This document shows positions 14,018-33,053 of a stretch of DNA of 64,000 bases, piece by piece. Position 1 is the first letter of the stretch. Each line of letters starts with the position of its first letter. The notes beneath the pieces are model-generated. The model was not told the DNA's origin. It saw only the letters and a list, made by a program, of their open reading frames with translations, and did no database searches. Source of the stretch: Sphingosinicella sp. (GTDB lineage Bacteria; Pseudomonadota; Alphaproteobacteria; Sphingomonadales; Sphingomonadaceae); NCBI RefSeq assembly GCF_013911755.1, contig NZ_JACESP010000015.1, positions 32,124 to 96,123 of the forward strand, given 5' to 3'. Position numbers and translations under genes: made by a program.

Positions 14018-14959
14018 TTAAGGCACGCCGCCGGCAAGGATGATCGCAAGATGCGCCGCATCGAGATGCCCTCCCGAAACGATGCACACGACCGGTCCCG
14101 GATGCTCGCCCGCAAGTGCAGCGGCGACCGGAGCGGCGCCAGCGCCTTCCGCGATCACGTGATGACGCTCGGCGAGCATCCGCACAGCGGCGGCTGTTTC
14201 CGCTAGCGAGACGAACGCGCTCCCTTTCAGAAGGTTGCGTACCAGCGGCCACATGGCCGGGATTACGGTCGGGCCGCCCATGCCCGTGATGAAGGATGGC
14301 GCAAACGGTACCGTGACCGGCTCTCCGGCAGCAAACGCCGCGCGCACCGGCGCGCCTGCCTCGCTCTCGCTCGCGACAACCGCGGCCGCAGATCCATAGG
14401 CCTTGAGCGCTGCGGCAATACCGCAAGCGAGCCCGCCGCCGCCGTAGGGCGCGAGCACCGTCGCCACATCGGGCAGATCCTCGACGATCTCGGCGCCGAT
14501 CGTTGCGTTTCCGGCGAGCACCTCGCTCTCCATGACAGGATGGATGAACGCCGGATCGGCGGGGGGCTCGGCAAGCATCGCCCACCAGCGATCATAGGCA
14601 AGCGGCACCACGCGTGCGCCGAACCTCTGCAGCGCCTCCACCTTGCTGCGCGCCGCCGTATCCGGAACGTAGGACGTCACCGAAATGCCCCGCGCGCGTC
14701 CGGCATAGGCAAGGCCCTGCGCAAAATTCCCGGCGCTCGCCGTGAACACGCCACTGCGGCAGGAATCGCCGCGGCTGAGGAGCGCATTCGCCGCGCAGCG
14801 TATCTTGAAGGAGCCGACTGGCTGCAGCATTTCGAGCTTCAGATAGATATCATTCCGCGCGCCGCCCTGCAGCCGGATAAGCGGCGTGCGCACGGCAAGA
14901 TCGCGGATACGTTCGCGCGCCACGTCGATTGCCGCGCGATCCGGTATCACGGTGCTCAT
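14018..14959 (-). CDS. PLP-dependent threonine/serine dehydratase-like protein (1)
   Basis: A fold-type II PLP enzyme of 313 residues. Lys in SFKIRCAANAL binds PLP; PYGGGGLACG is the phosphate-binding glycine loop; FTASAGNFAQG is the substrate loop. No C-terminal ACT domain is present, so it is the short catabolic kind (TdcB, serine racemase or hydroxy-aspartate dehydratase type), expected to eliminate water from a beta-hydroxy amino acid and release ammonia. It is 113 bp downstream of a paralogue on the same strand (15073..16074), and both follow bapA. The exact amino acid cannot be read from the sequence. Confidence 0.85.
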   Translation of the reverse strand: MSTVIPDRAAIDVARERIRDLAVRTPLIRLQGGARNDIYLKLEMLQPVGSFKIRCAANALLSRGDSCRSGVFTASAGNFAQGLAYAGRARGISVTSYVPDTAARSKVEALQRFGARVVPLAYDRWWAMLAEPPADPAFIHPVMESEVLAGNATIGAEIVEDLPDVATVLAPYGGGGLACGIAAALKAYGSAAAVVASESEAGAPVRAAFAAGEPVTVPFAPSFITGMGGPTVIPAMWPLVRNLLKGSAFVSLAETAAAVRMLAERHHVIAEGAGAAPVAAALAGEHPGPVVCIVSGGHLDAAHLAIILAGGVP

Positions 14960-18714: not shown

Positions 18715-20327
18715 CGCGCGCCGCTCAACTGCCGCACTTCTTCGCGAAGCGCGTGCTTGTCCACCTTGCCGATCGGCAGCAGCGGCAGCGCCTCGCGGAC
18801 CAGGAAGGTCTTGGGCACCTTGTAGTTCGCAAGCCGCTCCGCAGCGAATGCGCGGAGCGTAGCCTCGTCGATCACCGCGCCCGGCGCGGGAATCACGAAT
18901 GCCCAGCCGACCTCGTCATAACGCGGATCGGCCACCGGGATCACGGCCGCCGCCGCGACGCCCGGATGCTCTTCGAGCGCGAGTTCGACCTCGCGCGGAT
19001 AAACGTTGTAACCGCCCGACTTGAACATCTCTACGCTGCGCCCGACGAAGCGCCAGTTGCCAGCCGGCAGCAACTCCACCTGATCGCCGGTGCGGAACCA
19101 GCCGTCCGCCGTGAAGGCCGCGGCAGTCGCCTCGGGATTGTTGAAATAGCCGAGCATCACGCCCGGCCCCTTGATCTGCACTTCGCCGATACCGTGCTCG
19201 GGAACGGGCTCGCCCCCCTCATCGACGACACGATAAGCGTTGTGGTGATCGTGGTGCCCGATCGTTTCCGTCAAAAGCGCGAAATCCGCGTCTGGCGGAT
19301 TGACGCTGTTGATCGACCCGCCTTCGGTGAGCCCATAGTGCAGCGAGAAGAAATAGCCCTTCCCCTCCAGCCGGCGGAGCAGCGGCGCAGGCATCGGCGC
19401 GCCGCCCCATGCGATCACCGATACGCTGGAGAGGTCGCGCCGCGCGGCATCGGGATGATCGAACACCGCCTGATGCATCAGCGGCAGCCCGCCGAGGATC
19501 GTGATCTTCTCGCGCTCCGTCGTCTCCAGAATTCCGGCTGGATCGAAGCTTTCCATGAACACGATCGTGCCGCCGTCGATCAGGCAGTTTCCACACACGT
19601 CGGACTGGCAGCCGACATGGTTGGTCGGCAGGTTGCAGATCACGCGGTGCCCGGCGCGCAGACGTTCGCGGCCCACGAACGATTCCGAAAGCGCCCGGTA
19701 CGAATGAAAAAAGCTGTCGTGCGAGAGCACGGCCCCCTTGGGCTTTCCGGTCGACCCCGAGGTGTAGACGATACTCACGGGATCGCGGCGCGAGGTGCGA
19801 TTCAATCGGCGCGCGACATCATCAAGGGCATCGCCGTCCGCGAGAAACGCATCGAGCGATCGGCCCATCCCATTCAGAACACCGCCGATGGTGACGAGGC
19901 TGACGCCCGCGACGACATCGCCCGCAAGATCTCGGAGGTCATCGTCATAGCGGCGTCCCGCCGGATCTTCGAGAATCGAAACCAGCAGTTTCGGCTGACA
20001 GTCCCCGAGCACATGGCGCATTTCCTCGCGCCTGTATTTCGGGTTCACGCCCACCCACACGGCACCCGCACGCATCGCGCCAAGCAGCATCAGCATGAAC
20101 TCGGGGCGCGGCGTCACGATCATGGCGACACGGTCGCCAACCGCCACGCCCGCAGCGATCAGCGCGCGCGCATAGCGATCGATCTCGCGGTCGAAATCCG
20201 CATAAGACAAGCGCTGATCGCCGAAGATGATCGCCTCGCGATCAGGAACCGTCCGCGCATAGGCGGCAACTGCGTCCGGCAGCCTCTCGATACTGGCGAC
20301 AAGCGCCGGACCGTGCGGCGCCTGCAT
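18711..20327 (-). CDS. AMP-dependent acyl-CoA ligase
   Basis: An adenylate-forming CoA ligase of 538 residues. Motifs: VYTSGSTGKPKGAVLSH (A3), HYGLTEGG (A5), WFRTGDQVELLPAGNW (A7), GRSVEMFKSGGYNVYPREVE (A8) and LPIGKVDKHALRE with the catalytic Lys (A10). The ATG at 20327 is preferred: it follows AGAGGCGGCCTG and overlaps the MaoC stop by one base; an ATG 33 bases upstream would lie inside the MaoC gene. It is coupled to the transporter gene by ATGA. In this operon it may activate an acid, perhaps a beta-amino acid, released by BapA; the sequence itself gives only the enzyme class. Confidence 0.92.
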   Translation of the reverse strand: MQAPHGPALVASIERLPDAVAAYARTVPDREAIIFGDQRLSYADFDREIDRYARALIAAGVAVGDRVAMIVTPRPEFMLMLLGAMRAGAVWVGVNPKYRREEMRHVLGDCQPKLLVSILEDPAGRRYDDDLRDLAGDVVAGVSLVTIGGVLNGMGRSLDAFLADGDALDDVARRLNRTSRRDPVSIVYTSGSTGKPKGAVLSHDSFFHSYRALSESFVGRERLRAGHRVICNLPTNHVGCQSDVCGNCLIDGGTIVFMESFDPAGILETTEREKITILGGLPLMHQAVFDHPDAARRDLSSVSVIAWGGAPMPAPLLRRLEGKGYFFSLHYGLTEGGSINSVNPPDADFALLTETIGHHDHHNAYRVVDEGGEPVPEHGIGEVQIKGPGVMLGYFNNPEATAAAFTADGWFRTGDQVELLPAGNWRFVGRSVEMFKSGGYNVYPREVELALEEHPGVAAAAVIPVADPRYDEVGWAFVIPAPGAVIDEATLRAFAAERLANYKVPKTFLVREALPLLPIGKVDKHALREEVRQLSGAR

Positions 20328-20797
20328 CAGGCCGCCTCTCTCGAAATCAGGCCGATCCATTCGGCTACGAGAGCCGGACGCTCCTGCCCCTCGATCTCGA
20401 TCGTGTTCTCGGAGGTGACAAGATAGGCGCCATCCTCGCGCTGCTCCACGCTCTTGATCACCATGCGGTTGCGGAAACGCGCGTTCACCGGAACCGGCGA
20501 AATGAAACGCACCCGGTTGAGCCCATAATTCAGATCATAGCCGGCGACGCCCCCGCCGTGGCGATAACGGATCGGCGAGCAGAGATGGCTGAGCATCGAC
20601 AGCGTCTGAAACCCGAACAATATGGTCTGGCCGAACGGGCTGTGTTCGCGCGCATAGTCGGGATCCATGTGCATGGGATCGATGTCGCGCGTCACCCTGC
20701 CGAAGGCGTCGATCTCGTCCTGCGAGAGCGATATCCAGTCGCTGACAAGTATCTCCTGCCCGACGAGCGACGACAGGGTTTCGACATCATATTCCAT
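20327..20797 (-). CDS. MaoC-like (hot-dog) dehydratase/hydratase
   Basis: A 156-residue single hot-dog domain. TRDIDPMHMDPDYA followed by SPFGQTILFGF is the R-hydratase signature (Asp and His of D-x-D-P-x-H are present; the usual IAHG reads ILFG). Such proteins hydrate enoyl-CoA, and hot-dog relatives also eliminate ammonia from beta-alanyl-CoA. ATG 20797 is chosen because it begins the conserved MEYDVETL; its ribosome site is poor. It is the first gene of the ligase-transporter-bapA operon and is divergent from a TetR gene, with a perfect AT-rich palindrome between them at 20910..20925. Confidence 0.88.
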   Translation of the reverse strand: MEYDVETLSSLVGQEILVSDWISLSQDEIDAFGRVTRDIDPMHMDPDYAREHSPFGQTILFGFQTLSMLSHLCSPIRYRHGGGVAGYDLNYGLNRVRFISPVPVNARFRNRMVIKSVEQREDGAYLVTSENTIEIEGQERPALVAEWIGLISREAA

Positions 20798-20909: not shown

Positions 20910-20925
20910 TTGAATTTAAATTCAA
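20910..20925. promoter_or_regulatory. Perfect 16-bp palindrome, proposed TetR operator (site 1)
   Basis: TTGAATTTAAATTCAA is a perfect palindrome in the 221-bp gap between the divergent MaoC operon (start 20797) and the TetR gene (start 21019). On the minus strand it reads AACTTGAATTTAAATTCAA. The same ACTTGAA-led element occurs upstream of the crotonase, both TonB receptors and the carboxyltransferase. In this GC-rich DNA so AT-rich a palindrome is conspicuous. That the adjacent TetR protein binds it is inference. Confidence 0.7.
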
Positions 20926-21018
20926 GTTTATAAATTGCCGTACGAGGCTATGATTAGAAATTGGTTTTAAGGCCGGTATCCGGTATCACGGGCGCAATCG
21001 AGGTTGATCAAGAGCGCA

Positions 21019-21774
21019 ATGGCAACAAAGAAAAAAGCCGTGGGCGAAAGGCCTGCCGTCGCACCGCTGGGCCGCAAGGAACGTCGCAACGCCGTCAGCA
21101 AGAAACCTGCCGCACCACAGACGCAGCGCGGCAATCAGACGCGCGAGAAGCTGAAGGAAGCGACCGTGCGCGTGCTGGAGCGGATCGGCTACCGCGCCAT
21201 GCGCCTTTCCGACATCGCATCCGAAGCCGGCGTCAACGTCAGCCTCCTCTACCACTATTTTTCGGGCAAGGCGGACCTCACCCACGAGATCCTTGTTGAA
21301 CTGCTCGATAGGCAGCGTTTCGACGACCTCTCCGGCATGCCGCCGACCAGTGACCCGTTCGATTCGATCGTGCGCGCCAACAAGGTCATGGTTTCCACCT
21401 ATTCGCGCACGCCAGGCCTGATGCGGTGCCTGCTCCACTTCGACGAGGAGGAGGCCGAGTTCTCCGAACTCTATCGCAAGGTGAGCGCGGACTGGAGCCT
21501 CAAGATCGCGAAGGACATCGCAAAGCGATGCCCCGGCGTGGCACTGGGCGAGGAGCAGCGGTTGATGATCGCCTATGCCCTCGGCGGCATGGTCGACAAC
21601 TTCCTGTTCGAGCTTTACGTCGATCGGAATCCGACGCTGGTGAAGGCCTTCTCGTCGCCGGAGGATGTGGCGCATTTCCTCGCGATTCTCTGGTACAGGG
21701 CGATTTACCTCGCAAATCCGCCCGCCGAGCAGTTGAAGGGCTATGAGGGCTTCACAAGCCTCAAGATGGCCTGA
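21019..21774 (+). CDS. TetR family transcriptional regulator with basic N-terminal arm
   Basis: 251 residues. The helix-turn-helix spans about 42-90 (TREKLKEATVRVLE, RLSDIASEAGVNVSLLYHYFSGKADL); the rest is the helical ligand-binding and dimerisation domain. About 40 residues before the domain are rich in Lys and Arg (MATKKK, GRKERRNAVSKK), longer than usual for TetR proteins. ATG 21019 is used; a TTG 15 bases earlier is possible. It is divergent from the MaoC-ligase-transporter-bapA operon and stands beside a perfect palindrome, so it probably represses itself and that operon, and perhaps the further genes carrying the same site. An acyl-CoA or acid ligand is a guess. Confidence 0.9.
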   Translation: MATKKKAVGERPAVAPLGRKERRNAVSKKPAAPQTQRGNQTREKLKEATVRVLERIGYRAMRLSDIASEAGVNVSLLYHYFSGKADLTHEILVELLDRQRFDDLSGMPPTSDPFDSIVRANKVMVSTYSRTPGLMRCLLHFDEEEAEFSELYRKVSADWSLKIAKDIAKRCPGVALGEEQRLMIAYALGGMVDNFLFELYVDRNPTLVKAFSSPEDVAHFLAILWYRAIYLANPPAEQLKGYEGFTSLKMA

Positions 21775-21783
21775 ACCAGGTCG

Positions 21784-23127
21784 TCAGTTTGCGGCTGCCG
21801 CGCGTGGGCGCGCGGCGCGCAGCAGGTCGATCGCCCAAATAGCGGGATTATGCCCCACCTGATTGAGCGTTCCGCCGAGGCTGATCCCCGTGCCCGGTTC
21901 ATAGAGCATGATCGCGCCCCAGAATCCGGTGTGTCCGAAATACGAGATGCCGTCGGGCGTCGTCAGTCGTGACACGCCAAGCCCACGTTCCACCGCGATA
22001 TCGCCGCGCATCTGGCGCCACTGAGGCGACGTCATCAGCGCCAGCGTTTCCTTTTTCTTGAACAGCCGCCCCTCGCCGAGCGCGCGGATGAAGCGGTTAA
22101 GTTCGTCGGCCGTTGAGACGACACCGCCGCCCGCCCAATCGAAGGAAATGTTGAAGCGCCCGGTGCGGCCGGCGAAATCCCCGATATAGAAATCCGCAGC
22201 GTTGCCCTCATAGGGCGTGGTCGCTGGCTTGGTCGCATATTCGAGATAGGTGTGCTTCAGCCCGAGCGGATCGAACAATCGCTTACGGTAGGCCTCATGC
22301 AGCGTGGCGCCGGTGAGCTTTTCGATCACCAGGCCGAGAATGATGTAGCCGGTATCGCTGTAGTGATACCCCTGCCCCGGCGCGAACAGTCCGTTCGTCG
22401 CGCCGCCGTTATAGCTGAGGTAGAAATTGAGGATGCCGGCCTGCGGATCATCCGGCCGTGACGGGTCCCACGGCGCCCATGTCTTTCCGGTTGCCAGCGT
22501 CGCGATATCGCATCCCGGCGTCTCGAGGCACTTGCGATGCGTGCCGAGCACGCCGAGCAGCACGCCGCCGAAGGACTCCGGCGCCGCCTGCCCCTGGCTT
22601 TGTTCCGACGTGAGCTTTGCGTCGTCCATGAAGACGTCGCGCATACCCGACTGGTGCGCCAGCAATTGCCGGATTGTCAGCCCGGCGCCATAGCTGCGCC
22701 CTTCAAACGTCATCAGGCGGTCGAGGACCGCGGGCGCGAGCACGCCGAGCGAACCGAGCGTCGTTTCGATCCCCTCCGGGCCAAGCTTCCCCTCTTCGGC
22801 GAGTTGCAGAATCACCGTCGCCGTCATCGTTTTGGTCACGCTCGCGATCGGGAACTGGTCGTGTGCCGTAATCGCGGCCGTACCGCCTTCGCGCGCGGGG
22901 CCGACGCCCTTTGCATAATAGAGCTTTTGCGCGGGATCCTCCACGACCACCGCCGCATTGTGCATGGCATCAGCGGGTGCGGGCGAAGACGATGCCAGCG
23001 GCAAGGCCTGCATCACGGCATCGAGGCGTGCCGCCTCGGGCGCCGCCGGTGCCGTGCCATGCGCGCACCCGGCCGCCATCAGCATTAAAGCGCCAGCGAT
23101 CGCGCAACCGGCTTTCCGTACCATCAT
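21784..23127 (-). CDS. Lipoprotein serine hydrolase of the beta-lactamase/class C esterase family
   Basis: A 447-residue beta-lactamase-fold hydrolase. The N-terminus is a lipoprotein signal peptide with LMAAGC, so the protein is probably lipid-anchored in the cell envelope. SVTK supplies the Ser-x-x-Lys pair; the Tyr motif reads YSD rather than Tyr-x-Asn; HTG stands in the KTG position. Such proteins act as esterases, D-aminopeptidases or amidases. The start lies in an ATGA overlap with the stop of the crotonase gene, with a second ATG directly after. Coupling to a crotonase implies a role in catabolism rather than antibiotic resistance. Substrate unknown. Confidence 0.85.
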   Translation of the reverse strand: MMVRKAGCAIAGALMLMAAGCAHGTAPAAPEAARLDAVMQALPLASSSPAPADAMHNAAVVVEDPAQKLYYAKGVGPAREGGTAAITAHDQFPIASVTKTMTATVILQLAEEGKLGPEGIETTLGSLGVLAPAVLDRLMTFEGRSYGAGLTIRQLLAHQSGMRDVFMDDAKLTSEQSQGQAAPESFGGVLLGVLGTHRKCLETPGCDIATLATGKTWAPWDPSRPDDPQAGILNFYLSYNGGATNGLFAPGQGYHYSDTGYIILGLVIEKLTGATLHEAYRKRLFDPLGLKHTYLEYATKPATTPYEGNAADFYIGDFAGRTGRFNISFDWAGGGVVSTADELNRFIRALGEGRLFKKKETLALMTSPQWRQMRGDIAVERGLGVSRLTTPDGISYFGHTGFWGAIMLYEPGTGISLGGTLNQVGHNPAIWAIDLLRAARPRAAAAN

Positions 23128-23945
23128 AGAGCCTCCGAACCTCGCACCTTGAATCCCGCCACACGGGCCGTCACTTCAGCATCGAGCAGGCTCGCGGCGA
23201 GGTTGATTGTTTCCTCCGCCATCGCCGCCTCGATACGGTCACGCTCAAGCAGGTTGATCGCCCGTTTCAGGTTGCGTACCGCCTTCGCCGGGCGCGACGC
23301 AATGCGCTGAGCGAGTGCGAATGCCGCTTCGAGATGCTGTCCGGTCGGCGCGATCTCGGTCACGAGCCCCGCCTCATTCAGCGCCTTCCCGTCCAGATGT
23401 TCGCCACCCATGATCCATCTGAACGCCCGCTGCGGGCCGATCAGACGCGGCAGCAGCGCGGTCACGCCGCCGCTCACGAACATGCCCCATTCGATCTCGG
23501 GGAAAAACGCGCGCGCTTCCTCGGACCAGATCACCGCGTCGCAGTTGATCGCCCATTCGAAGCCGCCGCCCACGGCCCAACCGTGCACGGCCGCGATCAC
23601 CGGCTTTACGCCGAACATGATCTCCCGGCTCACCTGCTGCATCACGTCCACACGTGCGCGCATCGTCATTTCGTCCACGTCCTCCGGCGCCTCGTGCGCG
23701 GTCAGGTCGTCGCCTGCGCAGAAGGCCTTGCCGCTCCCGTGAAGCACAATCGCCGCCGTCGCCTCGTCGGCATTGGCTTCGCGCAGCGCAGCGATGAACG
23801 CGCGGACCATCGGTTCGTTGATCGCATTGAGGCACGCGGGCCGATTGAGCGTGATGACGCTGGCCCGGCCCTGACGGGACAGAAGGACTTCCGGCGATTC
23901 AGTCAATTCTCGAACCCTCAAACACGACGCGTGCGGCGCCCTCAT
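23124..23945 (-). CDS. Enoyl-CoA hydratase/isomerase (crotonase) family protein
   Basis: A crotonase-fold protein of 273 residues (260 if TTG 23906 is used, which has GAGGG eight bases upstream and gives the more usual length). Seen: ITLNRPACLNAIN, AFCAGDDL, and the oxyanion-hole segment HGWAVGGGFEWAINCD. The usual catalytic Glu positions appear in PEIEWGMF. It may hydrate, isomerise or hydrolyse a CoA ester. The upstream gap is shared with a divergent TonB receptor and holds two ACTTGAA-led sites (23963..23978 and 24139..24154). The stop overlaps the lipoprotein hydrolase start by ATGA. Confidence 0.88.
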   Translation of the reverse strand: MRAPHASCLRVRELTESPEVLLSRQGRASVITLNRPACLNAINEPMVRAFIAALREANADEATAAIVLHGSGKAFCAGDDLTAHEAPEDVDEMTMRARVDVMQQVSREIMFGVKPVIAAVHGWAVGGGFEWAINCDAVIWSEEARAFFPEIEWGMFVSGGVTALLPRLIGPQRAFRWIMGGEHLDGKALNEAGLVTEIAPTGQHLEAAFALAQRIASRPAKAVRNLKRAINLLERDRIEAAMAEETINLAASLLDAEVTARVAGFKVRGSEAL

Positions 23946-23962
23946 TCTTTCGCTATTTGATT

Positions 23963-23978
23963 TTAAATTTAATTTCAA
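23963..23978. promoter_or_regulatory. ACTTGAA-type AT-rich site (site 2), upstream of crotonase
   Basis: TTAAATTTAATTTCAA on the plus strand (minus: TACTTGAAATTAAATTTAA) is one mismatch in the outer arms from TTGAA-N6-TTCAA. It lies 18 bp upstream of the crotonase ATG, in promoter or leader position. It is proposed as an operator of the TetR protein encoded at 21019..21774 because of its likeness to the palindrome next to that gene. Confidence 0.5.
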
Positions 23979-24138
23979 GTAAAGCTGCGGATAGTGATGG
24001 CGTCGTTTGGAGGGCGAGCCGGTTGGGAGGCGGCCCTGCACGCGGCCCATGCACCGCTATTGGGAGGGGCAGGTGTTTTGCTGAACTGGAATCAGGGGAA
24101 GGCTCCGGGCCTCCCGGTCACGAAGACCAACGCAAAAC

Positions 24139-24154
24139 TTGAATATGAATTTAT
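24139..24154. promoter_or_regulatory. ACTTGAA-type AT-rich site (site 3), upstream of TonB receptor
   Basis: TTGAATATGAATTTAT, preceded by AAAC, lies 33 bp upstream of the receptor start at 24188. The left half (AACTTGAA) is perfect, the right half degenerate (TTTAT for TTCAA). Position close to the start fits an operator overlapping the promoter. Same proposed regulator as site 1. Confidence 0.45.
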
Positions 24155-24187
24155 GTTCTATCAATCGATCTGAAAAAGGGGGAAGGA

Positions 24188-26404
24188 ATGTCGAAATCGG
24201 TTAACCCTGCACGTAACCTGTCCGTGCGCCAGCTGATGCGATCGGCCGCGGTGCTCGCGCTGCTCTCGCCCGTACCCGCGCTGGCGCAGGAAGACGCCTA
24301 TGGCATCGAGATCATCACCGTCACCGCCCAGAAGCGCACGGAAAGCGTGCAGGACGTGCCGATCGCCATCACCGCATACTCCGAAGCTGGCCTCACCGCG
24401 CGCGGCATCGACGGGCTAGGCGATCTCGCACAGAATACCCCGAGCCTCGGCTTCGGCAACTTTTCCGATCTCAAGCTCTCCCCCATCGCGCTGCGCGGCA
24501 TTTCCGCAAGCTCGGGCTCGGCCGGGCAAGACCCCGCCGTCGGCGTCTATGTCGACGAGGTGTTCATGGGCGGCGGCGTCGGCGCCAATATCGACATGGT
24601 CGATGTGGAGCGCGTCGAGGTTCTGCGCGGTCCGCAGGGCACGCTCTTCGGCCGCAATACCGTCGGCGGCGTGATCAGTATCACCACGAAGAAGCCGACC
24701 GACGAATTCGAAGGCTATGTCTCGGCTGGCTACGGCGACTACGACGCGGTCAACCTGCGCGGCGCCGTCAGCGGACCGATCATTGCCGACAAGCTGCTCG
24801 CCCGCATCTCGGGGCAATACGAGGACCGCAAAGGCTTCACGCGCAACGAGATCGACGGAACGCGCGGCGACGATTCCCACACATGGAGCCTGCGCGGCCA
24901 GCTGCTGATGCGGCCTACCGAGAATGCCGAGTTCGTGCTTACCGGCGAATATCGGAAGGTTGACCAGCGATCCAAGTATTTCGAAACCCTGGCCTACAAC
25001 CCCGACCAGTTGCTCCCGCAGCTGCTCGAACTGTTCGAACTTCCGCTCAACACCGACCCCTTCGACCGCCGCGTCTATTCGGACCTCGCGACGAAGGAAA
25101 CGCTGAAGGCGTGGGCCGTCTCGTTCAACGCGAATATCGATTTCGGCGGCGTCGATTTCACCAGCATCACGTCCTACCGCGAGCATGAATACGACAACAT
25201 CGGCGACACCGACATGTCGCCGCTGCGCTGGCTCTACGACGGCGACCCCGAAGACGTCTGGCGCTTCAGCCAGGAGCTGCGCCTCGCCTCGAAGGGCGAC
25301 ACGGCGCTCAGCTGGATCGCGGGCCTCTATTATTTCCACCAGACGAGCCGCAACCTCAGCTTCGTTCGCCTCGGACAGGATCTCGCCGATCTGCTCGAGG
25401 TGCCCGCGATGGACATCGGGTCCGACGCGGACATGAAACTCGATAGCTACGCGGCTTACGCGAACATCTCCTACAAGATCACCGATCAGCTCGAAGCGAC
25501 GCTCGGCGGCCGCTACACCTACGAAAAGAAGTCGATCCTCTATTCGCAGTTCGATCCGCTCGCGCTCCTCGGCGGTCAGGTGGACGGTCTGCAGGGCAAG
25601 GATACGTGGAAGGCGTTCACGCCCAGCTTCAACATCCGCTACCACTTCAACCCGTCGGCAATGGCCTATGCGACCGTCAGCCGCGGCTTCAAGAGTGGCG
25701 GCTTCAACGACGCGCTCGGCGACGCGAACGGCATCAGCTACGATCCCGAATATATCTGGAACTACGAGATCGGCGCGAAGATGAGCCTCCTCGAAAACCG
25801 CCTTCTCGTGAACGTCGCGGCGTTCGCGATGGAATGGACCGACATCCAGATTTCGGCGGACGATCCGAATACGCTCCCCTTCGATCCGCGCACCAGCAAC
25901 GCCGGCAAGGCGCACTCGCGCGGTGTCGAGCTCGAAGTCACAGCCGTGCCGATCCCGGCGCTCGAACTCGGCTTCAATCTCGCGCTCACCGATGCGGAAT
26001 ATGACGAAGGCACGGTACCCACAGCGCCCGGCAGCCCGGAAATCCCGCTCGCCGACCTCCCGCGCGCGCCGGAAACCCGCTTTGGCGTAAACGCGCAGTA
26101 CACCGTGCCGCTGGGCGAAATGTCGCTCACCCTGCGCGGCGACTATCTCTACGAGCGCGGCACCGACCTGCTGCCCATCAAGGATCCAGCAGCCCGCGTC
26201 GGCACCGTCGGGCTTCTTAACGGCCGCATCACGCTCGCCGGCGAGGAAGACCGCTGGTCGATCGCGCTCTGGGGCAAGAACCTTACCGACAAGACCTACA
26301 AGACCCGTCTGTTCGACCTCTCGAACCAGGCGCTTGTGGGGCAGCAGCTCATCGTGCTCGGCGCACCGCGCACGTTCGGCGTGGAGGCGCGATTCAACTT
26401 CTAG
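24188..26404 (+). CDS. TonB-dependent receptor
   Basis: An outer-membrane receptor of 738 residues. Signal peptide to about residue 33 (LLSPVPALAQ), then IITVTAQKR, plug with VEVLRGPQGTLFGRNTVGG near residue 140, and a beta-barrel ending in VEARFNF with terminal Phe. The ATG follows GGGGGAAGGA. It is divergent from the crotonase gene, with ACTTGAA-type sites in the gap, and is followed 110 bp later by an exported serine hydrolase on the same strand, which may process the imported ligand. No siderophore-specific feature or Fur-like box is visible, so an organic nutrient is more likely. Confidence 0.94.
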   Translation: MSKSVNPARNLSVRQLMRSAAVLALLSPVPALAQEDAYGIEIITVTAQKRTESVQDVPIAITAYSEAGLTARGIDGLGDLAQNTPSLGFGNFSDLKLSPIALRGISASSGSAGQDPAVGVYVDEVFMGGGVGANIDMVDVERVEVLRGPQGTLFGRNTVGGVISITTKKPTDEFEGYVSAGYGDYDAVNLRGAVSGPIIADKLLARISGQYEDRKGFTRNEIDGTRGDDSHTWSLRGQLLMRPTENAEFVLTGEYRKVDQRSKYFETLAYNPDQLLPQLLELFELPLNTDPFDRRVYSDLATKETLKAWAVSFNANIDFGGVDFTSITSYREHEYDNIGDTDMSPLRWLYDGDPEDVWRFSQELRLASKGDTALSWIAGLYYFHQTSRNLSFVRLGQDLADLLEVPAMDIGSDADMKLDSYAAYANISYKITDQLEATLGGRYTYEKKSILYSQFDPLALLGGQVDGLQGKDTWKAFTPSFNIRYHFNPSAMAYATVSRGFKSGGFNDALGDANGISYDPEYIWNYEIGAKMSLLENRLLVNVAAFAMEWTDIQISADDPNTLPFDPRTSNAGKAHSRGVELEVTAVPIPALELGFNLALTDAEYDEGTVPTAPGSPEIPLADLPRAPETRFGVNAQYTVPLGEMSLTLRGDYLYERGTDLLPIKDPAARVGTVGLLNGRITLAGEEDRWSIALWGKNLTDKTYKTRLFDLSNQALVGQQLIVLGAPRTFGVEARFNF

Positions 26405-26514
26405 GATCACGCCCGCAAATCGTGCCATCATCGGGGAGACGCCGCGACGGGACCGCGGCGGCTCGGCGATGGTGGCACCACTATGAAAGGACCATCTGAG
26501 TGAAGGAAGGTGTC

Positions 26515-27984
26515 ATGCACGAACTCATCTGTTCATCGAAGGCTCCGCGCGGCGAAGGCTGGCGCAGGGGCGTGCTCCCGCTTCTGGTCAGCGTCGCGCT
26601 GCTCGGCACCGATGCATTGCATTCGGAGGTGAAGGCCGAAGCGCTCGCGCCCGAAACCGCGTCCCGTATTGATGCAATCATCGCAAACCGCATGGAAGCG
26701 GCCCCCTTCCCCGGGCTCGCAATCGCGATCGAACGCAAGGGCGAACTCGTTTATGCGAAGGGGTTCGGCATGGCCGATCTGGAGCAGGACGTGCCGGTCA
26801 CGGTGGATACCGTCTTCCCGATCGGATCGATCACGAAATCCTTCACCGGCCTTGCGCTCGCGCAGCTTGCTGTGGACGGCAAGGTTTCGCTGGACGAGAC
26901 CGCGGGCCATTATCTGCCCGATCTGCCGGAGCCCGCGCGCAGCGTGAAGGTCCGCAATCTTCTCGATCACACCGGCGGCCTTGTGAACTACACCGACCTG
27001 CCGGAGTTTCCCTACAACTCCCGGAAGGAATTCACGCGCGAGGAGATGGTCGGCTACTTCGCGAGCAAGCCGCTGATGTTCAAGCCGGGAACGGCGTGGA
27101 GCTATTCGAACTCCGGCACTTATCTGATCGGCCTCATCATCGAGAAGGTTTCGGGCGTGACGTACGACGAATACGTCCGCACGCACATTCTCGAACCGTT
27201 CGGCATGTCGAAGTCGCTCTATACGGACTGGACCCGTCTCGTGCCGCACCGCGCGCAAGGCTACAAAAAGGGCAAGAACGGCTGGCAGAATGCACTGCAA
27301 TATGATCCCATCGTTCCATTCTCAGCCGGCGCGATCATGTCGACCGTCGGCGATCTTCTGAAATACCGCCGCGGTGTGTTCGCGTCGGACAAGACCAGCC
27401 AGGCCGTGCGCGATCTCATTCTGAAGCGCGACAAGCTCGAGGACGGAACCGAGCTTCTTTACACGCTCGGCTGCCTCGTCACGACGAACTTCGAAGGCCA
27501 CCGCAAGATATCCCACGCGGGCGATATCTACGGCTTCTCGGCATACTACGCTTATTATCCCGATGACGACGTGGTCATCACCATCACCACCAACAATCAG
27601 GGCGGTGCTTTTCCGCCGCTCAGCGTCGAACAGAAGATCGCGCGCGAGATACTTGGCGTGCCGCAGCCGGTCGTCAAAGCATTGCCGGTTCCCGCCGATC
27701 TCGGCACCCGCGTCTCGGGCGATTACTATTTCGCGCCCTACCGCTTCGGGCCGGAGGTGCACGGCTTCTCCTTCAAGGACGGCCAGCTCTACCTGAATTT
27801 CGGTGGAACCAAATCGGGCGGCCCTGTGCTGCCGCTGCTCTACCAGGGCGCAAACCGCTTCGTGTCGGCCGTCGACGACGAGCACAACGTCGTCTTCAAA
27901 CCCGGGAAACGCGGCAAACCGGCAACGCTGACGATGGAGTATTACGGCGGCAGGTTCAGCGCACAGCAGACCCCCGCGAAGTAA
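26515..27984 (+). CDS. Exported serine hydrolase of the beta-lactamase family
   Basis: 489 residues with a hydrophobic signal segment near the N-terminus (GVLPLLVSVALLG). The beta-lactamase-fold motifs are SITK (Ser-x-x-Lys), YSN (Tyr-x-Asn) and HAG in place of KTG, typical of class C-like esterases and D-aminopeptidases. A C-terminal domain of about 110 residues follows the catalytic domain. ATG 26515 has AAGGAAGG close upstream; a GTG at 26500 with AAAGGA eight bases away is an equally real alternative. It follows the TonB receptor and ends before a bidirectional terminator. A periplasmic esterase or peptidase working on the receptor ligand is plausible; the substrate is unknown. Confidence 0.87.
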   Translation: MHELICSSKAPRGEGWRRGVLPLLVSVALLGTDALHSEVKAEALAPETASRIDAIIANRMEAAPFPGLAIAIERKGELVYAKGFGMADLEQDVPVTVDTVFPIGSITKSFTGLALAQLAVDGKVSLDETAGHYLPDLPEPARSVKVRNLLDHTGGLVNYTDLPEFPYNSRKEFTREEMVGYFASKPLMFKPGTAWSYSNSGTYLIGLIIEKVSGVTYDEYVRTHILEPFGMSKSLYTDWTRLVPHRAQGYKKGKNGWQNALQYDPIVPFSAGAIMSTVGDLLKYRRGVFASDKTSQAVRDLILKRDKLEDGTELLYTLGCLVTTNFEGHRKISHAGDIYGFSAYYAYYPDDDVVITITTNNQGGAFPPLSVEQKIAREILGVPQPVVKALPVPADLGTRVSGDYYFAPYRFGPEVHGFSFKDGQLYLNFGGTKSGGPVLPLLYQGANRFVSAVDDEHNVVFKPGKRGKPATLTMEYYGGRFSAQQTPAK

Positions 27985-28006
27985 TCAGGCCAAGTACAAA
28001 AAAGAA

Positions 28007-28040
28007 GAGGCCGGGGAAACAATTCCCCGGCCTCCTTTTT
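28007..28040. terminator. Bidirectional rho-independent terminator
   Basis: A perfect 12-bp stem (GAGGCCGGGGAA / TTCCCCGGCCTC) with an ACAA loop lies between the convergent serine hydrolase (stop 27984) and TonB receptor (stop 28059). On the plus strand the stem is followed by CTTTTT; on the minus strand by CTTCTTTTTT. It should end transcripts from both sides and is the clearest terminator in the window. Confidence 0.92.
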
Positions 28041-28058
28041 GGTCTGACGGTTCAGCCC

Positions 28059-30206
28059 CTAGAACTTGAAGCGTGCCTCAACGCCATACGTGCGCGGCGC
28101 GGAGAGAGACTGCACGGCCTGCCCGCCGATAATCACGCCATCGTCGCGGTAGAGCGCGTAGTCCTTGTTCGTCAGGTTGCGGCCCCACAGGAACAGCGAC
28201 CAGCCCTGTTCGCTGCCGATACCGATACGCCCGTTGAGCAGCGTCACATCGCCTTGCGAATAGTCGTTGTCCGGCCCGAAGAAGATCCGGCTGCGATGCG
28301 TCAGATCACCGCGCAGCGTCAGCGAGAGCGTGTCGGTAAGTGGCGCCTCGTATTGCGCGCCCACGCTGATGTTGTGCTTCGGCGCCTTCACCATCGTGTT
28401 GCCGGTGAAGTCGTCGCCACCCGGCGTGGCGCCTGCATAATCGAGGAACTTCGCATCGAGATAACTGTAGTTCACCGTAACGTCGAAGCCGTTAACGGGC
28501 CGTGCCGTGAGTTCGAGTTCGACACCCTTGCTGCGCGCGCGCGCAGCGTTCGAGGTCTGGAATTGCGGCAGACCGCCCACCAGCTCGAGCTGGTTCACCT
28601 GCAGGTCCTTGTAACGCAGATAATATGCCGAGGCGTTGAAACGCAGACGGTTGTCGAGCAGATCGGATTTCAGGCCAATCTCATAGCTTGTCACGAATTC
28701 CGGTTCATACTCGGCATCGTCCGTGGGCGTCACAGAAAACACGTTGTAACCGCCCGATTTGAAGCCCCGGCTGACGGTCGCGTAGGTCAGAACCTTGTCG
28801 TTCCACTTGTAATTGAGGCTGAGCGACGGAGAGAAATCATCCTCCGATCGGCCGAACCGACGTTCCGGCATCGTTGCAAGCAGCAATCCGAACGGATCGC
28901 CGTTCTGGCTGTGAATGACGTCCTTCTTTTCCCACGTATAGCGCAGTCCGGCAGTAATGCTGAACTGGTCCGTCACGCGATAGACGGCTTGACCGAATCC
29001 GGCGATGCTTTCGGATTTAATGGTCGCGAAAATGTTTCCGGTCACGGCCTCGGGATAGATGCCGAGGTCCGCGCCGATCACCGCAGCCGAATTTGTCTCA
29101 AGCCGCTGGTGGAAATAATAGACACCGAACACATACGTCAGCGGGCCGCTGTCAGGCGAGGCAAAACGCAGTTCCTGGCTGAACTGGTTCTGGTCCTCGC
29201 TGATACCCGAAGCGAGCAGGTCGAGCGCCGTGTAGTCATTGTCCGCGAGGTTATACCACTGGAACTCACGGTAAGCCGTGATGCTCGTCAGCTTCCCGCC
29301 GCCGAGCGACCAGTTGATCTCGCCAGAGGCGCCGAACGTGTCGCGGTTCTGAACCGTGTCCCTGTTCTGCACAACCTGACGGTCCCAACCGCTCGCGTCC
29401 GCAAGCGGTGTTCCGGTAAGATCGCCGTTGTCGGTGATGTCGATGGACCCGGAATTGGTCCGATCACGCGACGCATCGACACGCGCAACGAGTTCGAAAT
29501 CCTCGTTCTCGCTGTAAACCGCCGTCAGACGGCCCGAAAGCGAATCGACGTCGTCGAGGTCGGTTCCGGTCAGCAGGTTTTTCACCAGCCCGTCGCGGCG
29601 GTCGATGCCGCCCGAAACGCCGACATAGAACTTGCCCGGAACCACCGGCCCGCTGATCGAGGCGCTTGCCCGGATGGCTTCATAATTGCCGTAGCTCGCG
29701 CTGATGTCGCCGCGAAGTTCGTCGCCAGGCTTCCTCGTGATGAAGTTGATCGCGCCAGCGATCGTATTCTTGCCGTAAAGCGTGCCCTGCGGCCCGCGCA
29801 GCACCTCGATGCGTTCAAGGTCATAGAGGCTGTTGTTGATCGTCGTCGGGCGGCCCATGTAGACGCCGTCGACGTAAACGCCGACACCCTGATCGACGCC
29901 GGGGTTGTTCGTTTCCGAAACGATACCGCGAATCGAGATCGACGTGCCGCGCAGCTCGCGCATGTCGATGTAGACGCTGGGTAGCGAGGTCGCGAAATCC
30001 TCGATACGGCCGATGCCCTGATCCCGGATCGCTTCCGCCGACAGCGCGGAAACCGAAATCGGCACATCCTGGATCGATTCCGCCCGCTTCTGCGCGGTGA
30101 CGATGATCTCTTCCAGCTCGGCGGACTGTGCCAGAGCGGGCGCGGCCACGCCGGCACCGCCCACGCAAACCGCCGAACACAAAAGCGCGCGCTTCAAAAC
30201 ATGCAT
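28059..30206 (-). CDS. TonB-dependent receptor
   Basis: A 715-residue outer-membrane receptor. Signal peptide to about residue 26 (GVAAPALAQ), IIVTAQKR segment, plug with IEVLRGPQGTLYGKNTIAG, and a barrel ending in VEARFKF. ATG 30206 is preferred because AAGGGGAAACGAA precedes it; the frame is open 13 codons further. It is divergent from the DUF1611 gene, and a TTGAA-N6-TTCAA site (30317..30332) lies in the 201-bp gap. Its N-terminal half resembles the receptor at 24188..26404, so the two may handle related ligands. Ligand unknown. Confidence 0.94.
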   Translation of the reverse strand: MHVLKRALLCSAVCVGGAGVAAPALAQSAELEEIIVTAQKRAESIQDVPISVSALSAEAIRDQGIGRIEDFATSLPSVYIDMRELRGTSISIRGIVSETNNPGVDQGVGVYVDGVYMGRPTTINNSLYDLERIEVLRGPQGTLYGKNTIAGAINFITRKPGDELRGDISASYGNYEAIRASASISGPVVPGKFYVGVSGGIDRRDGLVKNLLTGTDLDDVDSLSGRLTAVYSENEDFELVARVDASRDRTNSGSIDITDNGDLTGTPLADASGWDRQVVQNRDTVQNRDTFGASGEINWSLGGGKLTSITAYREFQWYNLADNDYTALDLLASGISEDQNQFSQELRFASPDSGPLTYVFGVYYFHQRLETNSAAVIGADLGIYPEAVTGNIFATIKSESIAGFGQAVYRVTDQFSITAGLRYTWEKKDVIHSQNGDPFGLLLATMPERRFGRSEDDFSPSLSLNYKWNDKVLTYATVSRGFKSGGYNVFSVTPTDDAEYEPEFVTSYEIGLKSDLLDNRLRFNASAYYLRYKDLQVNQLELVGGLPQFQTSNAARARSKGVELELTARPVNGFDVTVNYSYLDAKFLDYAGATPGGDDFTGNTMVKAPKHNISVGAQYEAPLTDTLSLTLRGDLTHRSRIFFGPDNDYSQGDVTLLNGRIGIGSEQGWSLFLWGRNLTNKDYALYRDDGVIIGGQAVQSLSAPRTYGVEARFKF

Positions 30207-30316
30207 TTCGTTTCCCCTTTTTCTCGCGCGCCGATTCCGGCCCACGCATTCCCGTCACCAAGCTCCGCCGTATGCCTGTGCTGGCACCGTCGGTACGATC
30301 AGGATCATTCTTCATT

Positions 30317-30332
30317 TTGAAATTGAATTCAA
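30317..30332. promoter_or_regulatory. TTGAA-N6-TTCAA site (site 4) between TonB receptor and DUF1611 gene
   Basis: TTGAAATTGAATTCAA has both outer arms perfect (TTGAA...TTCAA); on the minus strand it reads AACTTGAATTCAATTTCAA. It lies 110 bp upstream of the TonB receptor start (30206) and 75 bp upstream of the DUF1611 start (30408), so it could govern both. It is the second-best copy of the proposed operator after site 1. Confidence 0.6.
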
Positions 30333-30407
30333 GTTGATTATTGTCGAATAAGGAACATCGTTTCCAAAAGATCAACAAACGCACCGCTGAAGGACACTGG
30401 ACAGCCC

Positions 30408-31421
30408 ATGGTAGACCTGCCGTCACCCTATCTCCTCTTTCTGGGTGACACCCGGAGCGAGACCTATGCCAAGACCGCATTCGGCCTGCGCGACTGGGCG
30501 CCTGACGCGGTGATCGGCGAGTATGCCATGCCGGAAGCGACGGTGACCCTGGGACTCGAAAGGCTCACGCCCACTGCCGCGGCGTCGCGCGGCGCGCGTG
30601 CGCTGCTTCTCGGCATTGCGCCGGTCGGCGGCGCCATCCCGGCCCACTGGCTGCCCGAGCTCATCGCCGCGCTGGAAGCCGGGCTCGACATCGTCGCCGG
30701 GCTCCACCAGCGGCTTGCAGACATCCCGGAGCTGGCAGCGACCGCGCGACGCCTTGGCCGCACGTTGTTCGACGTCCGTCACCCAACCGTCAGCTTCAGC
30801 GCGGGCACCGGTCTCCCCCGCTCGGGCAAGCGACTGCTTACCGTGGGCACGGACTGCGCACTCGGCAAGAAATACACGGCGCTTGCCATTGCGAAGCGGT
30901 GGCAGGCACTCGGCGGCAATGCGGATTTCCGGGCAACGGGGCAGACCGGCATCATGATCGCCGGTCACGGCGTCGCCATCGATGCCGTCGTCGCCGACTT
31001 CATCGCAGGCGCAGCCGAATGGCTGAGCCCGGCGAACGCGCCCGATCATTGGGACATCATCGAGGGCCAGGGCTCGCTTTATCACCCCGCCTTCGCGGGC
31101 GTGACGCTCGGCCTCCTGCACGGCGCGCAGCCCGACCTGTTCGTGCTCTGCCACGATCCGACGCGCGCCGCGATCTACGGCTACCCACACATTCCCATGC
31201 CCGACCTTGCCGAAGCGATCGCGCTTTACACGCAGCTCGGACGGCTGACGAACCCGGCCATCGCCTGCGCGGGGATCAGCATCAACAGTTCGAAGATGGG
31301 CGAGGCTGATCGCGCCGACTGGATCGCGCGGACAGCAGACCGGCTCGGCCTGCCCGTCGCCGATCCGCTGCGCGACGGCGTCGACGGGTTCATCCAGAAG
31401 ATGCAAGCCGTCAGGGCATGA
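30408..31421 (+). CDS. DUF1611 P-loop protein (DgcN-like)
   Basis: A soluble protein of 337 residues. An N-terminal domain of about 130 residues is followed by a P-loop-like GTDCALGKKYTA near residue 147, FRATGQTGIMIAG, and EGQGSLYHPAF, the pattern of the DUF1611 family. Some members (DgcN) have been described as D-glutamate N-acetyltransferases; the DgcA partner, an enolase-superfamily dehydratase/racemase, is not seen here, so that activity is only a possibility. It is divergent from a TonB receptor across a shared TTGAA-N6-TTCAA site. Its last 11 bases overlap the convergent carboxyltransferase gene. Confidence 0.8.
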   Translation: MVDLPSPYLLFLGDTRSETYAKTAFGLRDWAPDAVIGEYAMPEATVTLGLERLTPTAAASRGARALLLGIAPVGGAIPAHWLPELIAALEAGLDIVAGLHQRLADIPELAATARRLGRTLFDVRHPTVSFSAGTGLPRSGKRLLTVGTDCALGKKYTALAIAKRWQALGGNADFRATGQTGIMIAGHGVAIDAVVADFIAGAAEWLSPANAPDHWDIIEGQGSLYHPAFAGVTLGLLHGAQPDLFVLCHDPTRAAIYGYPHIPMPDLAEAIALYTQLGRLTNPAIACAGISINSSKMGEADRADWIARTADRLGLPVADPLRDGVDGFIQKMQAVRA

Positions 31422-32967
31422 CCCCGTGCCGCATCGCGGGCTGCGCGGACGCCGTCCGCCGCGTCAGCGTCTGATCGAGCACCCGGATCAGGCGCGGGCG
31501 TGTCTCGCGCGGGTCAATGACGTCGTCGATGTTCAGCTTCGACGCCGCGTGGAATGGCCCGGCGCAGCGCGCGTAGTTCGCCGTCAGGTCGCGGATCAGC
31601 GCCTGCGGGTCTTCCGCGGACTCGATCTCCTTCGAATGCGCCGCCAGCACCGATCCGCCGGGCGGCAGCGAACCGAAATCCGCCGTCGGCCAGGCAAGAA
31701 TCATCGCCTGCTGTGCCTCCGCGCCGCCCATCGCCACCGCACCGAAGCCGAATGCCTTGCGAATGACGACGGTAATGCGCGGCACCGCCGACCATGAGAT
31801 CGCATAGCTGAGCGCAAGCCCTGCGCGCAGCGTCCCCTCCTGCTCCGCCTTCGGCCCCGGCATCACGCCCGGCACGTCCTGCAGGAAGATGATCGGGATG
31901 TGATAGGCCGAGCACAGGTCCACGAAATGCCGCGCTTTGTTCGCCGCCTGCGCGGTGATAGCGCCCGCCGAAACCATCGGCTGGTTCGCGATAATTCCAA
32001 CCGAATGGCCGCCCAGCCGGGCAAGCCCGGTCACGATCATGCGCGCGTGGTCCGGCTTGATCTCGAAGAAGCTGTCCCGATCGACGACGCTGTGGATCAG
32101 GTCTTTCACGTCATACGGCAGGCGCGGGTTTTCAGGGATTAGGCTCACCAGCCGTTCGTCCATCCGGTCGGCGGGATCATCGCAGGCCAACCGCTCGGGA
32201 TATTCGTAAGCGTTGCGCGGAAAATAGGAGAGGAATCGCTGCGCCATCGCGATCGCCGCCTCTTCGGTTGGTGCCGCATTGTCGGCCACCCCGGAGATCC
32301 GGCAATGCACGCCCGCGCCGCCAAGCTCTTCGGGCGACACGCTCTGCCCGGTCGCGGATTTCACCACTGGCGGCCCGGCGGCGGCAAGCATTGCGGTGCC
32401 CTCCACCATGATGATGAATTCGGCAAGGCTGCTGAGCAGCGCCGAATCCCCAGCGCTCGGCCCCATCACGATCGCGACCTGCGGTGCGATGCCGGAAAGG
32501 CGCGCAAGCGTGATGAGATGCGAGGCCTCCGGCAGTCCCTCCCCGATCATCTCCTGCGCGCGCGCCCCCGCGCCGTCCTGCAGCCAGATGATGGGCATCC
32601 GCTCGCGCAGCGCGATGTCGGCGATGCGGTGTTTCTTCCGCCCGTGGTGGAGGCCATAGGTGCCGCCGTGCACGGTGAAATCCTCAGCCGCAACGCACAC
32701 GGGCCGTCCGTCGATCGTCCCCGTTCCGATGATCACCCCGTCCGCGGGGGTCACCTCGTCCACGGTTTGCGCGTAGCCGATCGGGCTCGCGTGCGAGGCA
32801 AGCTGGCCGTATTCGAGGAAGCTGTCTGGATCGAGCAGCATGGCGATACGTTCGCGCGCCGTGCCCTTGCCGCGATCCCGCTGCCGGCGGACCTTGTCCT
32901 CCCCGCCCATCGCCAGCGCGCGCGCGCGCCGCGCCTGCAATTCCTCGATCGCTTCAGCCATGCCCAT
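31411..32967 (-). CDS. Acyl-CoA carboxylase carboxyltransferase subunit
   Basis: 518 residues of the propionyl/methylcrotonyl-CoA carboxylase beta family, which moves CO2 from biotin to an acyl-CoA. N-terminal half: GKGTARERIAMLLD and DFTVHGGTYGLHHGRK; LQDGAGARAQE is the acyl-CoA oxyanion segment. C-terminal half: FLQDVPGVMPGPKAEQEG and ITVVIRKAFGFGAVAMGG. The ATG at 32967 has GGAG eight bases upstream. No biotin carboxylase/biotin carrier subunit is next to it, which is unusual: the partner must be elsewhere, or the protein acts as a decarboxylase-type carboxyltransferase. An ACTTGAA-type site lies 40 bp upstream. Confidence 0.9.
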   Translation of the reverse strand: MGMAEAIEELQARRARALAMGGEDKVRRQRDRGKGTARERIAMLLDPDSFLEYGQLASHASPIGYAQTVDEVTPADGVIIGTGTIDGRPVCVAAEDFTVHGGTYGLHHGRKKHRIADIALRERMPIIWLQDGAGARAQEMIGEGLPEASHLITLARLSGIAPQVAIVMGPSAGDSALLSSLAEFIIMVEGTAMLAAAGPPVVKSATGQSVSPEELGGAGVHCRISGVADNAAPTEEAAIAMAQRFLSYFPRNAYEYPERLACDDPADRMDERLVSLIPENPRLPYDVKDLIHSVVDRDSFFEIKPDHARMIVTGLARLGGHSVGIIANQPMVSAGAITAQAANKARHFVDLCSAYHIPIIFLQDVPGVMPGPKAEQEGTLRAGLALSYAISWSAVPRITVVIRKAFGFGAVAMGGAEAQQAMILAWPTADFGSLPPGGSVLAAHSKEIESAEDPQALIRDLTANYARCAGPFHAASKLNIDDVIDPRETRPRLIRVLDQTLTRRTASAQPAMRHGVMP

Positions 32968-33007
32968 TGTCGTTGCTCCACTGGTGACGGCAACGGGCTC
33001 ACATCAA

Positions 33008-33023
33008 TTTAACTTAAATTCAA
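33008..33023. promoter_or_regulatory. ACTTGAA-type AT-rich site (site 5), upstream of carboxyltransferase
   Basis: TTTAACTTAAATTCAA on the plus strand; the minus strand reads AACTTGAATTTAAGTTAAA. The proximal arm is perfect and the distal arm has two mismatches. It lies 40 bp upstream of the carboxyltransferase start and 30 bp before the stop of the next upstream gene. Proposed as a member of the same operator set as site 1. Confidence 0.5.
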
Positions 33024-33053
33024 GTTCTATTATTGAGAGGACAGGCAGCAACC

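Follow-up and report, generated by a model that had tools for sequence, protein, structure and literature searches.

We examined a 64,000-nt stretch of the genome of Sphingosinicella sp. (assembly GCF_013911755.1, contig NZ_JACESP010000015.1, positions 32,124 to 96,123; hereafter the window, 65% GC), which carries bapA, the gene of a beta-peptidyl aminopeptidase, and a gene for a TetR-family regulator. Five AT-rich islands in this DNA are predicted operator sites; they are better read as copies of one 22-bp element, TTGAAnTTGAATTCAAnTTCAA, than as sites of 16-18 bp, and the strict form of this element occurs at only six places in the 3.63 Mb host genome (G000), five of which are these. We propose, with a probability of roughly 0.82, that the TetR protein is a local, self-regulating repressor which would act through this operator on about seven transcription units and on an amidohydrolase gene of another contig (C15), and whose release by an effector would switch on a joint catabolism of D- and beta-amino-acid amides. 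The type of system is an ordinary one, a local TetR regulon.

The repeated element and its distribution

A preliminary description of this DNA had reported five ACTTGAA-led, AT-rich sites, all in upstream regions and with no copy inside genes. All five are present at the positions it gave, and all lie upstream of annotated genes. Nine copies of the ACTTGAA heptamer itself lie in the window, whereas 100 shuffles contained 2.29 on average and always fewer than nine. Five of the nine copies are the reported sites, and the others (19019, 28064, 47850 and 58838) lie inside long open reading frames (ORFs), namely the ligase gene, the end of the TonB receptor C gene and two ORFs without annotation here, and have no AT-rich second half; absence from genes thus holds for the whole motif but not for the heptamer. 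When we searched the window with a pattern derived from the five sites, WNAWNWTDAATTHAWNWTNW, we obtained five matches, each of them upstream of an annotated gene although some overlap longer ORFs from the mechanical list; the same pattern was absent from all 100 shuffles. Since the pattern came from the sites themselves, their recovery is by construction and the absence of other matches is the informative part.

A strict 22-bp pattern was scanned in 14 genomes, the host and 13 others. The earlier expectation that matches would cluster upstream of catabolic genes agrees with what we found: the six places in G000 are the five window sites and C15:17152, each just upstream of a gene, and operator copies are concentrated at target promoters genome-wide. 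Among relatives that carry the TetR, the pattern matched five places in G150, all in the cluster, six in G201 (Sphingosinicella microcystinivorans DSM 19791), five of them in the cluster and one at an amidohydrolase gene, four in G056, in the cluster, and one in G277, on a short contig. It had no match in G085 and seven further family members, that is, in eight of the nine searched genomes where no TetR orthologue was found. A looser pattern, ACTTGAAWTNAAWTTNAA, with at most two mismatches, matched operators 1, 2, 4 and 5 and one place on C15 (operator 3 has three mismatches), and gave scattered matches in genomes without the TetR (two in G001, one in G003 and four in G005). A loose 16-bp pattern with two mismatches produced 99 strand matches genome-wide against 43 in its backward control, many of them noise, and was dropped for counting.

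A search of 298 genomes of the family gave orthologues of the TetR (82-93% identity) in four besides the host, and three of these four are among the five other genomes of the genus. Conservation of the sites in relatives that keep the TetR, also anticipated in the preliminary description, was indeed observed: all five are present at syntenic positions in both G150 and G201, while G056, which belongs to a different genus, keeps operators 1-3 and has two additional sites, and G277 keeps one, which is all that its short contig can show. When four intergenic regions were aligned across species, the conserved blocks were sharply bounded. Operator columns were identical in 100 of 110 cases (91%) as compared with 295 of 659 surrounding ungapped columns (45%; Fisher p = 2.2e-21), and in four genomes the block of operator 3 runs from TTGAA to TTCTA, conservation stopping at the 22-bp borders.

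Operator architecture and the protein that would read it

The element TTGAAnTTGAATTCAAnTTCAA consists of four half-sites or, put otherwise, of two 16-bp palindromes shifted by 6 bp. The consensus offered earlier, AACTTGAAwTnAAwTTnAA, caught the shared motif but had to be corrected in register and length, for the ACTTGAA-led alignment mixes inner and outer half-sites, and the operator spans 22 bp, not 16-18. Eight distinct sites (the five of the window, the one on C15 and the two extra ones of G056) fit TTGAAnTTGAATTCAAnTTCAA at 16-18 of 20 positions each, and the central AATT is invariant in all eight. Taken together they match the four-half-site model at 137 of 160 positions. When the best 16-bp palindrome score of each site was kept and the remainder randomised with AT-rich letters in free register (three AT settings, 4000 runs each), the best simulation reached 124 of 160. 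The half-sites, the simulation and the borders of the conserved blocks all point to an operator of overlapping palindromes that is longer than the site of one dimer, as in the two-dimer operator class.

A member of that class, CprB, occupies a 22-bp operator as two dimers in its crystal structure, in the way QacR does (PMC4150764), and we suggest that the window TetR probably binds its operator as two dimers set 6 bp apart. Both CprB and QacR share with it the TetR-family helix-turn-helix. The best NCBIfam match of the window protein is a ScbR-type model (2.5e-9, below cut-off), and CprB is among its weak PDB matches (2.2e-6). However, the similarity lies mainly at the DNA-binding end, the operator sequence and the gene set are different, and the two dimers are here deduced from DNA sequence. 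It is also conceivable, if unlikely, that the operator is a plain 16-bp one held by a single dimer, with the outer half-sites as functionless AT-rich flank. Several TetR proteins do bind as one dimer (PMC4150764), and the site beside tetR (operator 1) contains the perfect 16-bp palindrome, TTGAATTTAAATTCAA, to which the preliminary description had drawn attention. Against this, simulations with an AT-rich flank stayed below the observed fit, the block of operator 3 ends at the 22-bp borders in four genomes, and CprB, even though it is a weak sequence relative, holds 22 bp as two dimers.

That this TetR is the binder is supported by two lines of evidence, its own promoter and its recognition helix. 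The protein has a TetR_N helix-turn-helix at its N-terminus (PF00440, 47.8 bits against a cut-off of 24), and the palindrome TTGAATTTAAATTCAA stands at the promoter of its gene in five of five loci, the window and the four orthologues, as would be expected of an autoregulation site. In addition, TTGAAN6TTCAA (at most one mismatch) was found upstream in 15 of 16 loci whose TetR, orthologues included, carries a helix of the form V[NA][VI][SG]LxYHYF, and in none of 15 TetR loci with other recognition helices. These 31 TetR homologue loci (22 from a first search and nine new) represent about three lineages, namely this TetR, its 46-49% relatives in another family and a paralogue on contig C5, and are not independent points. 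For four of them, L101 among these, the helix and the upstream region were read directly and not by script; the contig scan gave eight loci, of which L069 (Firmicutes, 30%) was left out. A structure model of the TetR was all-helical but poor (mean predicted local distance difference test score 54, predicted template modelling score 0.44, eight sequences), and it was not used.

Instead of repressing, the TetR could activate its targets or do both, since operator 1 and the operator of receptor C lie about 110 nt from the maoC and receptor C start codons. We consider this improbable. The distance to the start codons assumed here is about 27-50 nt for operators 2, 3 and 5, and in G212 and G163, two genomes of the genus g95 discussed below, the amidohydrolase operators overlap ORF start codons. 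Sites placed close to or over start codons suit repression.

There is also a slim chance that another regulator reads the sites, partly, wholly or jointly, and the paralogous TetR on contig C5 (38% identical) is one candidate. Its recognition helix, VAVGLFYHYF, resembles VNVSLLYHYF of the window protein, sites of the TTGAAN6TTCAA type occur both at the promoter of the paralogue and before a TonB receptor gene, and G242, where one 22-bp match occurs, has a C5-type TetR while no orthologue of the window TetR was found there. However, the palindromes of the C5 operators are about 15 bp apart (by eye) and not 6, and none of them matches the 22-bp pattern. It seems to be the same half-site that the C5 paralogue reads, only at a different spacing. 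Moreover, operator 1 is fixed at the window TetR's own promoter in all five loci, and among the 14 genomes the 22-bp sites stand at bapA-cluster promoters only where this TetR is present. The notion that the sites are AT-rich promoter or architectural elements, such as UP elements or nucleoid-protein sites, draws on their being AT-rich islands in a 65% GC window, and we regard it as very improbable given a near-palindromic, sequence-specific element with six strict copies in 3.63 Mb, its absence from eight of nine searched genomes where no TetR orthologue was found, and a promoter-like scan of the region that gave four matches against a shuffle mean of 2.3 (sd 1.5). Three of these four overlap operators 1 or 4, which fits the proposed regulon, though their number is near chance.

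The locus of the C5 paralogue (L031, C5:40001-60000 of G000) is a second module of the same make, in which the gene of the paralogous TetR, with its differently spaced half-sites, has as neighbours genes for a TonB receptor, a MaoC-like protein and a beta-lactamase-fold hydrolase. A third TetR module was seen on C15 (L033, 46001-66000), where tblastn identified a TonB receptor, two serine hydrolases, a ligase, a thiolase and a major facilitator superfamily (MFS) gene; TCAAGTATAAACTTGA and CCAAGGATAAACTTGA, located between its tetR and receptor genes, are perhaps the operator of that TetR.

Several observations weigh against the regulon as proposed. The orthologous sites represent few lineages and are not independent observations. 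Backward controls also gave matches: for the 22-bp pattern, two per strand in G000 and in G201 and one per strand in G150 and in G056, and for ACTTGAAWTNAAWTTNAA, ten strand matches as against seven forward. The pattern being near-palindromic, its backward control is not clean, and in the window the control matches of the 22-bp pattern coincide with operators 2 and 5. The strict pattern misses one of the additional G056 sites, that of an M81 peptidase gene, and it finds one match (L061:6881-6902, on G242:C100), upstream of an M20-type gene, in G242, the ninth genome without a TetR orthologue found, whose assembly is 83% complete. The C15 site is absent upstream of the amidohydrolase orthologues in G150, G277 and G242. 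Finally, L097 encodes a TetR of 49% identity with the helix VNISLVYHYF, and no such site was found in its locus.

Genes and extent of the proposed regulon

The features of the cluster are collected in Table 1, in which start codons are partly guesses.

Table 1. Predicted operators and genes of the bapA cluster (window coordinates).
Feature	Coordinates	Strand	Remarks
Operator 1	20910..20931	.	TTGAATTTAAATTCAAGTTTAT; between maoC operon and tetR; 19/22 columns identical, 5 genomes of two genera
Operator 2	23957..23978	.	TTGATTTTAAATTTAATTTCAA; upstream of enoyl-CoA (coenzyme A) hydratase gene; 22/22 columns identical, 4 genomes
Operator 3	24139..24160	.	TTGAATATGAATTTATGTTCTA; upstream of TonB receptor B; 18/22 columns identical, 4 genomes
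Operator 4	30317..30338	.	TTGAAATTGAATTCAAGTTGAT; between TonB receptor C and dgcN-like gene; 22/22 identical, 3 genomes
Operator 5	33008..33029	.	TTTAACTTAAATTCAAGTTCTA; upstream of carboxyltransferase; 19/22 identical, 3 genomes
Second pyridoxal phosphate (PLP)-dependent dehydratase-like enzyme, probable operon end	14018..14959	-	PF00291; NCBIfam matches below cut-off
PLP-dependent threonine/serine dehydratase-like enzyme	15073..16074	-	PF00291; NCBIfam threonine ammonia-lyase below cut-off
bapA, beta-peptidyl aminopeptidase (S58)	16133..17341	-	PF03576; 765 bits to PDB 3n2w, 373 residues
MFS_2/GPH-type transporter	17338..18714	-	PF13347
Acyl-CoA ligase, overlaps neighbours	18711..20360	-	PF00501
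MaoC-like hydratase, first gene of bapA operon	20327..20797	-	PF01575; ORF listed 20327-20866, ATG at 20797
TetR-family regulator, 251 aa	21019..21774	+	PF00440 E=1.2e-12; recognition helix VNVSLLYHYF
Beta-lactamase-fold (S12-type) serine hydrolase 1, overlaps crotonase gene	21784..23127	-	PF00144
Enoyl-CoA hydratase/crotonase	23124..23906	-	PF00378; start uncertain, probably TTG at 23906
TonB-dependent receptor B	24188..26404	+	PF00593, PF07715
Beta-lactamase-fold serine hydrolase 2	26500..27984	+	PF00144
TonB-dependent receptor C	28059..30206	-	PF00593, PF07715
DUF1611/DgcN-like protein (D-glutamate catabolism family)	30408..31421	+	PF07755
Acyl-CoA carboxylase carboxyltransferase subunit	31411..32967	-	PF01039

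The TetR protein is predicted to bind TTGAAnTTGAATTCAAnTTCAA and to repress its own gene, and the five operators would stand at the promoters of about seven transcription units: maoC-ligase-MFS-bapA followed by the two PLP-dependent dehydratase genes; tetR; crotonase-serine hydrolase; TonB receptor B-serine hydrolase; TonB receptor C; the dgcN-like gene; and the carboxyltransferase gene. The protein assigned as BapA has the S58 domain and matches over its full length the BapA of Sphingosinicella xenopeptidilytica (PDB 3n2w; PMC9570944, PMC10531186), an enzyme which cleaves peptides with N-terminal beta-amino acids (PMC10531186). The DUF1611 protein of the window resembles DgcN, which acts in D-glutamate catabolism (PMC12363236); it is of the same family and scores 453.9 bits over 325 of 326 positions of the NCBIfam DgcN model, a little short of the equivalog cut-off of 480. 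PDB matches of serine hydrolase 2 include alkaline D-peptidase and D-Ala-D-Ala carboxypeptidases, beside many class C beta-lactamases and esterases. The thread that appears to run through these gene families is the amide bond of D- and beta-amino acids together with an acyl chain. A small effector, most likely an acid or CoA-thioester made by the operon's ligase, would release the repressor, and uptake, cleavage of D-/beta-amino-acid amide bonds and acyl-CoA catabolism would then be induced together.

A sixth operator would serve a D-aminoacylase-type amidohydrolase on contig C15. The site (C15:17152) lies directly upstream of this gene, which is related to D-aminoacylase and apparently TTG-started; it is present in G000 and weaker in G201. 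The regulon probably reaches this promoter too, the site being supported because an amidohydrolase is a target in both this and the g95 system. Two penicillin-amidase family genes adjoin the amidohydrolase gene in the same region (L032:10939-15978). In the window, an AraC-type regulator gene (12915-14009) is divergent from a block of acyl-CoA dehydrogenase, thiolase, ligase, DUF5938 and TonB receptor genes (4788-12833). This module is kept in G150, G201 and G277, with only weak or partial matches on the 45-kb G056 contig, the part of G056 that was searched for it. We set the block aside as an unproven part of the regulon, as the window pattern scan found no operator match in it and it faces its own AraC-type gene; it is probably a separate catabolic module. 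The single TetR regulon around bapA put forward in the preliminary description is therefore supported, by conservation, specificity and the helix association, and amended, in that the C15 promoter probably belongs to it and the 4788-12833 block probably does not.

The order of the cluster is kept in G150 and G201, except that G150 lacks dgcN and G201 the PLP gene at 15073-16074; for TonB receptor C, the identity to the counterparts in these two genomes is no more than 65-66%. The bapA gene of G056 does not adjoin that of the transporter, and an operator of its own lies before it; another site is found upstream of an M81/MlrC_C peptidase gene, after which comes serine hydrolase 2. The product of this M81 gene reaches 392 bits with the NCBIfam MlrC model, whose cut-off of 999 is far higher. 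This cluster has as extras, beside the M81 gene, genes for a D-aminopeptidase (M55) and a protein with a D-serine dehydratase domain, and no good site was found at its TonB receptor C homologue, which lies at the contig end.

Two further sequences of the window deserve mention. A second conserved block, ATTAGAAATTGGTTTTAA (20953-20970), lies between operator 1 and tetR, is largely kept in G056 and is perhaps a promoter element or a weak second site. The sequence ACCTAAAGTTAACTTGAGGTT (33922-33942) has a SoxR/MerR-type gene (33433-33894) on one side and a VOC-like gene on the other. It contains ACTTGA yet falls outside the TetR regulon; it resembles the classical SoxR box, and its counterpart in G201 is a perfect ACCTCAAGTTAACTTGAGGT.

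A parallel system and a possible natural setting of BapA

Orthologues of BapA with 71-72% identity occur in the genus g95 (G163 and G212), where the neighbours of bapA are genes for a TetR (33-36% identity to that of the window), MaoC, a ligase, TonB receptors, a serine hydrolase and an amidohydrolase, the last being 65% (G212) and 62% (G163) identical to the C15 enzyme. The repeated operator is a different one, AAAnCTGATRTCAGYATCATnTTT, a consensus that was seeded from the g95 tetR promoter. At a threshold of at least 16 of 22 it has five places in the 20 kb of G212 and four in those of G163, against none in 40 shuffles of each. All of them lie just upstream or at the start of genes of the tetR/maoC, TonB receptor, serine hydrolase, bapA and amidohydrolase types; one precedes bapA itself in G163. 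Genome-wide, exact copies of the operator core are confined to the cluster in both G212 (three of three) and G163 (two of two). With one mismatch there are seven more in the two genomes combined, and only one of these, at bapA, belongs to the cluster; G201 has one exact core match elsewhere. A distant TetR with a different operator appears to mark the same kinds of genes.

The regulons of known systems offer partial parallels. PheR of Sphingobium sp. SHPJ-2 is likewise a sphingomonad repressor, whose deletion raises the expression of catabolic genes and, in transcriptomes, of TonB receptors; it differs in being discussed with IclR-family regulators, in the GCAACG core of its GC-rich operator and in its substrate, phenanthrene (PMC13273656). 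We also considered microcystin as a substrate, given that one G056 operator precedes an M81 gene and that G201 is S. microcystinivorans. The mlr pathway of microcystin degradation uses the serine hydrolase MlrB and the M81 enzyme MlrC. A PF07364 search of G000 found no M81 gene, which disfavours microcystin, and the four M81 genes of G201 all lie away from the 22-bp matches there; the mlr reading was accordingly ruled out for the window genome. One M81/MlrC-family gene of G201 (C5:7137-8929) is the immediate neighbour of a gene for a TetR (L021, L076) distantly homologous to that of the window.

To our knowledge, the natural substrate of BapA is not established. The enzyme is treated as a biocatalyst or as an example of a protease in the sources at hand (PMC9570944, PMC10531186). 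Our literature search, which covered few subscription papers, found no account of bapA regulation, nor one of this operator with this gene set. We tentatively suggest, at slightly less than even odds, that the regulon serves specifically for the use of peptides rich in beta- and D-amino acids as food, peptides resembling nonribosomal ones, and that BapA has its natural place in it. Across genera, the set of genes (TonB receptor, D-peptidase-like serine hydrolase, BapA, D-aminoacylase, MaoC and CoA ligase) would then have been kept while the TetR and its half-site (TTGAA versus CTGAT) were swapped or diverged together on a multi-half-site layout with 6-bp offset that looks, by eye, the same. 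The two parallel regulons with different operators would offer a compact case of co-evolution between TetR proteins and operators over the same kinds of targets. The shared operator ties BapA to receptors, D-peptidase-like hydrolases, a D-aminoacylase and acyl-CoA enzymes, and so suggests what an enzyme examined so far chiefly as a laboratory catalyst may do in nature, a question that tests of induction and growth could address.

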